Part shown: positions 39,646 through 40,900 of the stretch, in pieces
Position numbering within the stretch: the stretch's first letter is position 1
Layout of the letters: every line of letters starts with the position of its first letter
Source: Halothiobacillus sp.
GTDB taxonomy: Bacteria > Pseudomonadota > Gammaproteobacteria > JAAZVP01
Direction: 5' to 3'
NCBI GenBank assembly: GCA_018623495.1
Contig: JAAZVP010000002.1
Span: 24,600 to 88,599, forward strand
DNA length: 64,000 bases
The notes under the pieces: model-generated
Told to the model about the DNA's origin: nothing
Seen by the model: the letters and a program-made list of their open reading frames with translations, nothing else
Database searches by the model: none
Position numbers and translations under genes: made by a program

Positions 39646-40900
39646 TTGACCGTCGCCTGGATCAGCCACCCCGACTGCCTCGCCCACGCCCCGAGCGGCT
39701 GGCACCCGGAAAACCCCGCGCGCCTGGAGGTTCTGGAACGCGCGGCGTCGGGGCTGCCGGCCGGGCGCATCGCCCGCCTTTCCGCACCGGCGGCCGAGGA
39801 TGCCGCCCTGGAACGCGCCCACGATCCCCGCTACCTCCGGGCGCTGGCCGAGCAGGCACCCGGGCGCGGCACGCTGGCCGTGGACGCCGACACCTACCTG
39901 GGACCCGAATCTAGGGAACCTCTGCACGAATCGATGGCGCCTCTGCGGGACCGCCAAGGGTCCAGATGCAAGGCGCAGCTCGCAGTGAATGGCCGTCGCC
40001 CTTTACCAGAGCTGCAACACAGCAGATGGGCCCTTGGCGGCCCGCCCGAATGGGGCTTGCGGGTTTGCCCGCACTCTTGTTCATGCCGCACATCCGTGTG
40101 CGGCACCCTGCGGGCGCCCAAAGGCGTGCAACCCGGCTTTCCTGCCGGGTTGTGCCCGGTCCTCGACGGGCAATCAGCCCGCCTTCGGCCCGGCGCCTCG
40201 ATTGCGAACAAACCCGCAAGCCAGAGACGCCATCGATTCGTGCAGAGGTTCCCAGCCTGCCTGCCGGCGGGCCGCGGGTGGCGTCATGCGGGGCATCGAC
40301 CGGGTACTTGCCGGCGACTTCGCCGCGGCCTTTGCCGCCACCCGTCCCCCCGGCCACCACGCCGCCACCCGCCAGCCCATGGGCTTCTGCCTGGTCAACC
40401 ACCTGGCCGTGGGCGCCCTGCATGCGCTGGAGACCGGCGGCATCGAGCGCCTGGCGGTGGTGGACTTCGACGTCCACCCGGGCAACGGCACCCACGCAAT
40501 CCTCGGCCACGACCGGCGGGTGCTCGAAGTGGGCATGCACCAGCAAGGGCTCTGGCCGGCGGCGGAGACCGTCGGCCCCGCGAGCGTGGCGCTGCCCCGT
40601 GGCAGCGAGGGCCGCGTCCTGCGCCGGGCCTGGCAACGACACTGCCGGCCGGCGCTGGTCGATTTCCGGCCCGGGCTGGTGCTGGTATCGGCGGGTTTCG
40701 ATGCCCACCGCGACGATCCGCTGGGCGGGCTGGGCTGGCGCGACGCGGACTACGGCTGGCTGGGCGAGCAGCTGGCGGGGCTCGGGGTTCCGCTGGTGGC
40801 GGTGCTGGAAGGCGGCTACGAGCCGGCGGCGCTGGGCTGCGCGGTGCCGGCATTCCTCGCCGGGCTCGACGCCTCGCGGGACCGTGGTGGCGGTTCATGA
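39646..40900 (+). pseudogene. Histone deacetylase/AcuC-family gene interrupted by a 340-bp element
   Basis: N-terminal part LTVAWISHPDCLAHAPSGWHPENPARL...DADTYLGPES in one frame; C-terminal part PACRRAAGGVMRGIDRVL...RPPGHHA...DFDVHPGNGTHAIL in another; frames join when 39914-40253 is removed. Confidence 0.85.
39914..40253. mobile_element. MITE-like palindromic insertion element, 340 bp
   Basis: Perfect 26-bp terminal inverted repeats gggaacctctgcacgaatcgatggcg (39914-39939 / 40228-40253), extending to 32 bp with one mismatch; no transposase ORF; internal hairpins. Confidence 0.85.

Follow-up and report, generated by a model that had tools for sequence, protein, structure and literature searches.

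The window, by which we mean the whole stretch of 64 kb analysed here, carries a histone-deacetylase-family (HDAC-family, AcuC-like) gene split by a 340-bp segment at positions 39914-40253 (Table 1). Since the frames differ on the two sides of the insert, the gene is broken in the window; the interruption had been proposed by the sequence-only reading and is borne out by matches to PF00850 on both flanks. The gapless join that this reading obtained by deleting the 340 bp is also reproduced, here against the closest intact homologue found in a protein-library search (P0003, 308 aa), with S-K-P-A-C facing S-L-E-A-C at the junction. We rejected exact excision of 340 bp as a mark of precise insertion, because the pre-insertion site cannot be fixed. 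An element of 338 bp with a 4-bp target-site duplication (TSD) would add 342 bp and keep the frame, so that the present 340 bp suggests that 2 bp were lost later. The window also has an intact HDAC-family paralogue at 46133-47053. Judged from the sequence, the insertion has inactivated the first gene and left this paralogue untouched.

The segment is bounded by terminal inverted repeats (TIRs) that are perfect over 26 bp and have one mismatch over 32 bp; the two arms of 32 nt are 97% complementary, which confirms their original description. The terminus is unique within the window at up to three mismatches (chance expectation 0.01). No transposase gene is present inside the element, whose 340 bp contain spurious ORFs only, and as single-stranded DNA (ssDNA) it folds with -133.5 kcal/mol (z = -15.8 versus dinucleotide shuffles). 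The insert is a non-coding MITE, that is, a non-autonomous transposable element.

Table 1. The split gene, the inserted element and a relic copy, in window positions
Feature	Position	Strand	Basis and remarks
Decayed relic, right half of another copy	30491-30566	+	Directly downstream of tRNA-Arg(CCT) at 30395-30471
5' part of split HDAC-family (AcuC-like) gene	39646-39912	+	Weak PF00850 match when taken alone (E = 3.3e-4); alignment with P0003 residues 11-93
Insertion with target-site remnants	39910-40255	+	Left remnant CTAG (39911-39914); right remnant C-AG (40253-40255), which lacks one base; seen in the window flanks and by comparing those of 12 complete copies
Left TIR, GGGAACCTCTGCACGAATCGATGGCGCCTCTG	39914-39945	+	First 20 bp: 55 genome sites within 3 mismatches, control 0; outermost G probably target sequence
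Arm A, conserved folded core	39941-40049	+	Covariance model R1, 91.1 bits, E = 1.7e-23; covariation. Layout: outer stem - CAAGGC - GCAG stem - CGCAGtgAATGGCC/GCCCTTtaCC stem - GAGCTGC - AACAC - outer stem
Central mini-hairpin, CGCCCGAATGGGGC	40041-40054	+	Family form CCC-GNA/TNC-GGG
Arm B, second large hairpin	40054-40222	-	Inverted repeat I2; DNA fold; one model match per copy
Right TIR	40222-40253	-	Inverted-repeat detection
3' part of split HDAC-family gene	40256-40900	+	Other frame; PF00850, E = 3.4e-54; 58% identical to P0003

Genomic copies, target sites and the likely mobiliser

About 30 loci of the element are dispersed over the host genome, assembled to 2.46 Mb in 110 contigs; 12 of them are complete and 267 to 622 bp long. 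The check for further copies of the termini, suggested at the outset, was run and found them throughout this genome (Table 1). The longer copies consist of the basic element with extra hairpin modules within its loops, as in L012 (1087-1708), L005 and L044, which measure 622, 411 and 367 bp. Most of the incomplete copies (about 20) are truncated by contig ends. Many contigs of the assembly begin or finish within a copy, which indicates that the element family fragments the assembly.

When the outermost G/C is counted as target, exact 4-bp TSDs flank L003 (TTAG), L002 (CTTG) and both L018 and L019 (CTAG); among the 12 complete copies compared, the remaining ones have near-matching TSDs, with none at three. 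CTAG and TTAG fit a YTAR-like 4-bp target, from which CTTG deviates. In the window copy the right target duplicate is damaged and partly lost (Table 1). The sequence-only reading had seen no TSD and had called this unusual for a DDE-type MITE. For the family the first statement is wrong, given the perfect duplications at four copies, and the second finds no support, as TSDs flank several copies; the duplication was overlooked because it takes in the outer G/C of the 'TIR'. The MITE-like nature proposed at the same time is, by contrast, supported by the dispersed copies, by the 4-bp TSDs and by ends shared with an IS5-family relic.

This relic lies on contig 57 of the host assembly (C57:17584; L042, 1501-2213), is about 713 bp long and internally deleted, and has CTAG on both sides. 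It starts with GGGAACCTCTGCACGAACCGATAGTGT and encodes a truncated DUF772 transposase; one of its ends shares about 25 bp with the MITE, the other just the first bases. The N-terminus of the relic transposase shares 77-78% identity with IS5-family transposases annotated on plasmids, and the elements with such transposases on pWW0 and on an Azotobacter plasmid end in GGGCACCTC. Because no intact DDE_Tnp_1 transposase was found among the 110 contigs (PF01609 gave 0 matches and PF05598 one truncated relic), we infer mobilisation from the shared ends and the TSDs: the element was probably inserted in trans, at a CTAG-like site, by an IS5-family transposase that is now missing or was not assembled. 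On plasmids, no close copies of the window element were found; when two related elements served as queries, the first matched just four plasmid records and no phage, and the second one plasmid record and nothing in E. coli.

A folded core shared by elements with different ends

When 59 relatives were searched with the element, weak matches to its interior and none to its ends were obtained, and these interior matches sit within other MITE-like elements that have different TIRs. A 21-base pattern of this shared core occurs in at least 116 stretches of a species-level genome collection; those listed are gammaproteobacterial or labelled merely as proteobacterial MAGs. With a covariance model and a threshold of E <= 1e-4 per genome, the core is present in 115 of 387 sampled gammaproteobacterial genomes (about 30%) and in 88 of the 399 genomes of a phylum-wide sample.

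Sixty-three aligned cores support a single structure. Its outer stem has about 20 pairs and leads into the loop CAAGGC opposite AAC(G/A)C; next come a stem of the GCAG type, a loop GCA/AA and the inner stem, which ends in AATGGC/GCCCTT. Both sides have changed in 28 of the 36 pairs, with 616 both-side changes in total, in an alignment whose rows are related. Paired cells amount to 93.1%, whereas shuffles reach 66.1% and slid controls 34-43%. The covariation score of 0.70 likewise exceeds that of shuffles (0.19) and of slid controls (0.09-0.14).

Most core-bearing elements contain two inverted cores joined at a mini-hairpin, CCC-NNN-GGG, so that the usual anatomy is TIR, core, mini-hairpin, inverted core, TIR (about 270 bp). 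Among the core loci inspected, 89 of 101 are bounded by TIRs, and the median length is 269 bp. The central triloop is GNA or TNC in 124 of 139 cases of the wider family. This form is C(UNCG)G as RNA on one strand and d(C-GNA-G) as DNA on the other; the C(UNCG)G RNA tetraloop and the d(C-GNA-G) DNA minihairpin are both hyperstable.

In the host genome only arm A of the copies is recognised by the core covariance model, and arm B gives no match. Arm B occupies the place of the inverted core of other families and has a similar hairpin topology with a different sequence. It has therefore diverged or been replaced, and the window lineage is a diverged member of the superfamily.

The TIRs of core-bearing elements form 27 clusters at 70% identity, with types including CTAGTACTC, CTAGTGTCCTGTC, TATACCCAAG, AGGGTCTGTTGAC, AGAGCTCATTTC, CTAAGACAAACG and GGAACCTCTG. 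As some clusters are probably related, the independent end types number fewer than 27, yet many clusters have no visible likeness to one another. One complete genome (G127, contig 1, e.g. L276-L305) has about 21 copies of a 267-bp superfamily member; nearly all of those compared are 99% identical and TA stands at almost every end, which points to a recent burst and to a target rule unlike that of the window family. No longer or autonomous element with this TIR was found in the same genome, where each paired TIR lies about 267 bp from its partner.

In another genome (G559, contig 1, e.g. 3617005-3617055, L268) we observed palindromes of about 50 bp in which two TIRs of a core-bearing family nearly adjoin each other.

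Strand asymmetry and possible roles of the core

Selection on duplex DNA predicts equal numbers of G-U and A-C, since a G-T on one strand is an A-C on the other. In the core there are 186 G-U versus 25 A-C, counted over related alignment rows, or 66 versus 22 when GT-dominated columns are excluded, the asymmetry being inflated in helices 2 and 3, which were selected partly by fixed 5' letters. The outer helix, which was unselected, has 92 versus 24, and its distal third is near parity (22 versus 15). The TIRs of 78 elements, taken in the same orientation as a control, have 61 versus 56. The motif strand also forms a more stable fold than the complementary strand does, in better- as well as worse-scoring arms (p ~1e-6), and DNA folding parameters give a difference of the same sign. 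The large excess of G-U in the core and the parity in the TIRs suggest that the core is seen as a folded strand and the TIRs as duplex. Conservation thus probably acts on a single folded strand of the core, whether RNA or ssDNA, and on the duplex form of the TIRs.

The best overall explanation, to which we give a probability of roughly 0.7, is that of an IS5-mobilised MITE which entered an HDAC-family gene and whose body comes from a superfamily with a strand-conserved folded core. An IS5-family transposase acting in trans would have inserted the MITE at a CTAG-like site and so broken the gene. The body belongs to the superfamily of elements of about 270 bp, with two inverted cores around a hyperstable mini-hairpin. 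The core itself may be a cis-acting module that aids persistence or movement of the element whichever transposase recognises its ends. With the two cores in inverted order, a correctly oriented core lies in the 5' half of either strand, and a read-through transcript or ssDNA from either direction would present it. The core may function in transcripts, where it would limit the cost of the insertion, or at replication forks, where it would aid mobility. More tentatively, we suggest that the core may be an undescribed folded module, RNA or ssDNA, placed as a symmetric pair inside gammaproteobacterial miniature transposons, joined to the ends of several transposase families and working for the element whatever the transposase, as a transposase-agnostic parasite of transposons.

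If the core works as RNA, it would be a module in read-through transcripts, for example in termination, processing or translation, and would make insertions less harmful to the host. The tolerance of G-U and avoidance of A-C on one strand, the greater stability of the motif strand and the hyperstable RNA tetraloop formed by the central loop on one strand are all consistent with this role, as is the inverted duplication, through which every read-through transcript receives one core. A conserved promoter was, however, not seen by eye, and Rfam 15 gave no gathering-threshold match among 16 loci, while the window element and 19 further loci had nothing beyond scattered sub-threshold matches. Moreover, the insertion in the window does break its gene. 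On balance, we consider an RNA role a real possibility that stops short of being probable.

A structure of ssDNA serving replication or transposition, through fork-linked transposition or an ssDNA-binding host factor, would account for the asymmetry of G-U and A-C equally well, and the DNA folding parameters agree in sign. The other strand of the central loop is the hyperstable DNA minihairpin, and the core is independent of the TIR. This role nevertheless appears rather unlikely to us, as DDE transposases work on duplex ends and no HUH or tyrosine transposase was seen accompanying the core.

The core could also be the functionless ancestral body of a very old MITE lineage whose ends have drifted, its pairing reflecting no more than the upkeep of palindromes through gene conversion between inverted repeats or through hairpin repair. 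The constant length of about 269 bp fits such common descent, and template switching can homogenise palindromes and thereby produce covariation without selection. Homogenisation would not, however, yield an excess of G-U over A-C, nor conserved unpaired loops (CAAGGC, AAC, GCA/AA) or the GNA/TNC loop rule, and the TIRs, which are palindromic too, have no asymmetry. We therefore regard a functionless core as distinctly unlikely, and explanations other than these three as improbable.

A plain IS5-family element shortened by internal deletion, with no unusual feature, is a highly improbable reading of the insert: the end of about 25 bp and the CTAG TSD are indeed common to it and the IS5-family relic, but the interior is not IS-derived and matches the core of elements with unrelated ends, so that this explanation was already disfavoured.

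An integron attC site, an IS200/IS605 end, a group I or II intron and a bridge RNA were also considered, and are disfavoured by the DDE-like TIRs, by the TSDs and by the absence, by eye, of attC consensus boxes.

Relation to described elements and significance

The window element resembles IS5-group, or type II, MITEs in its GGNACCTC-type ends, which are shared with the IS5-family relic, in its YTAR-like 4-bp TSD, in needing no ORF and in its probable mobilisation in trans; it differs in that its body is not IS-derived and has a folded core common to MITEs with other ends and TSDs. QMITE1 and QMITE2 of Coxiella (150-400 bp, about 50-80 copies, some of them transcribed) are likewise gammaproteobacterial MITEs with highly stable folds, but QMITE1 was described as lacking orthologues in other genomes; we set it apart here on this description and not by sequence (PMC5896051). 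The TIMEs of Pseudomonas are non-autonomous, Tn3-derived elements of 262 bp with long inverted repeats and RNA-like folds conserved across classes; unlike the present elements, they have 38-bp Tn3-type ends, a TSD of 5-6 bp and a single transposase family (PMC4133298). MITEAba12 is also moved by an IS that shares its TIRs only, and its body is of unknown origin, but it is 113 bp long with a 9-bp TSD, one TIR type and a variable centre (PMC6382973).

ERIC and REP/BIME sequences are, like the present elements, dispersed palindromic repeats of Gammaproteobacteria; REPs, however, are 20-40 bp long, with GTAG/CGTC tags and tyrosine transposases, whereas the elements described here are larger and bounded by TIRs (PMC10969869, PMC3733652). 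Membership in REP/BIME was rejected on this difference in size and end structure.

No published description of core-bearing elements was found in the open-access literature (ISfinder and subscription papers lay outside the scope of the search), and individual families may possibly have been described before. The suggestion of the sequence-only reading that the family may be undescribed thus holds for Rfam 15 and the open literature; its view of the family was too narrow, as the family is far larger than suggested and the first arm of the window element is a core shared by MITEs with many TIRs across Gammaproteobacteria.

A practical effect of these elements is that their repeats break assemblies. 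MITEs are commonly defined by their ends and viewed as what a single IS has passively left behind. In the elements described here it is the ends that vary and the folded body that persists, and the body has a strand-specific signature of pairing that the ends lack. If this is confirmed, the body would be the functional part, and a device made of RNA or ssDNA may underlie the success of MITEs.
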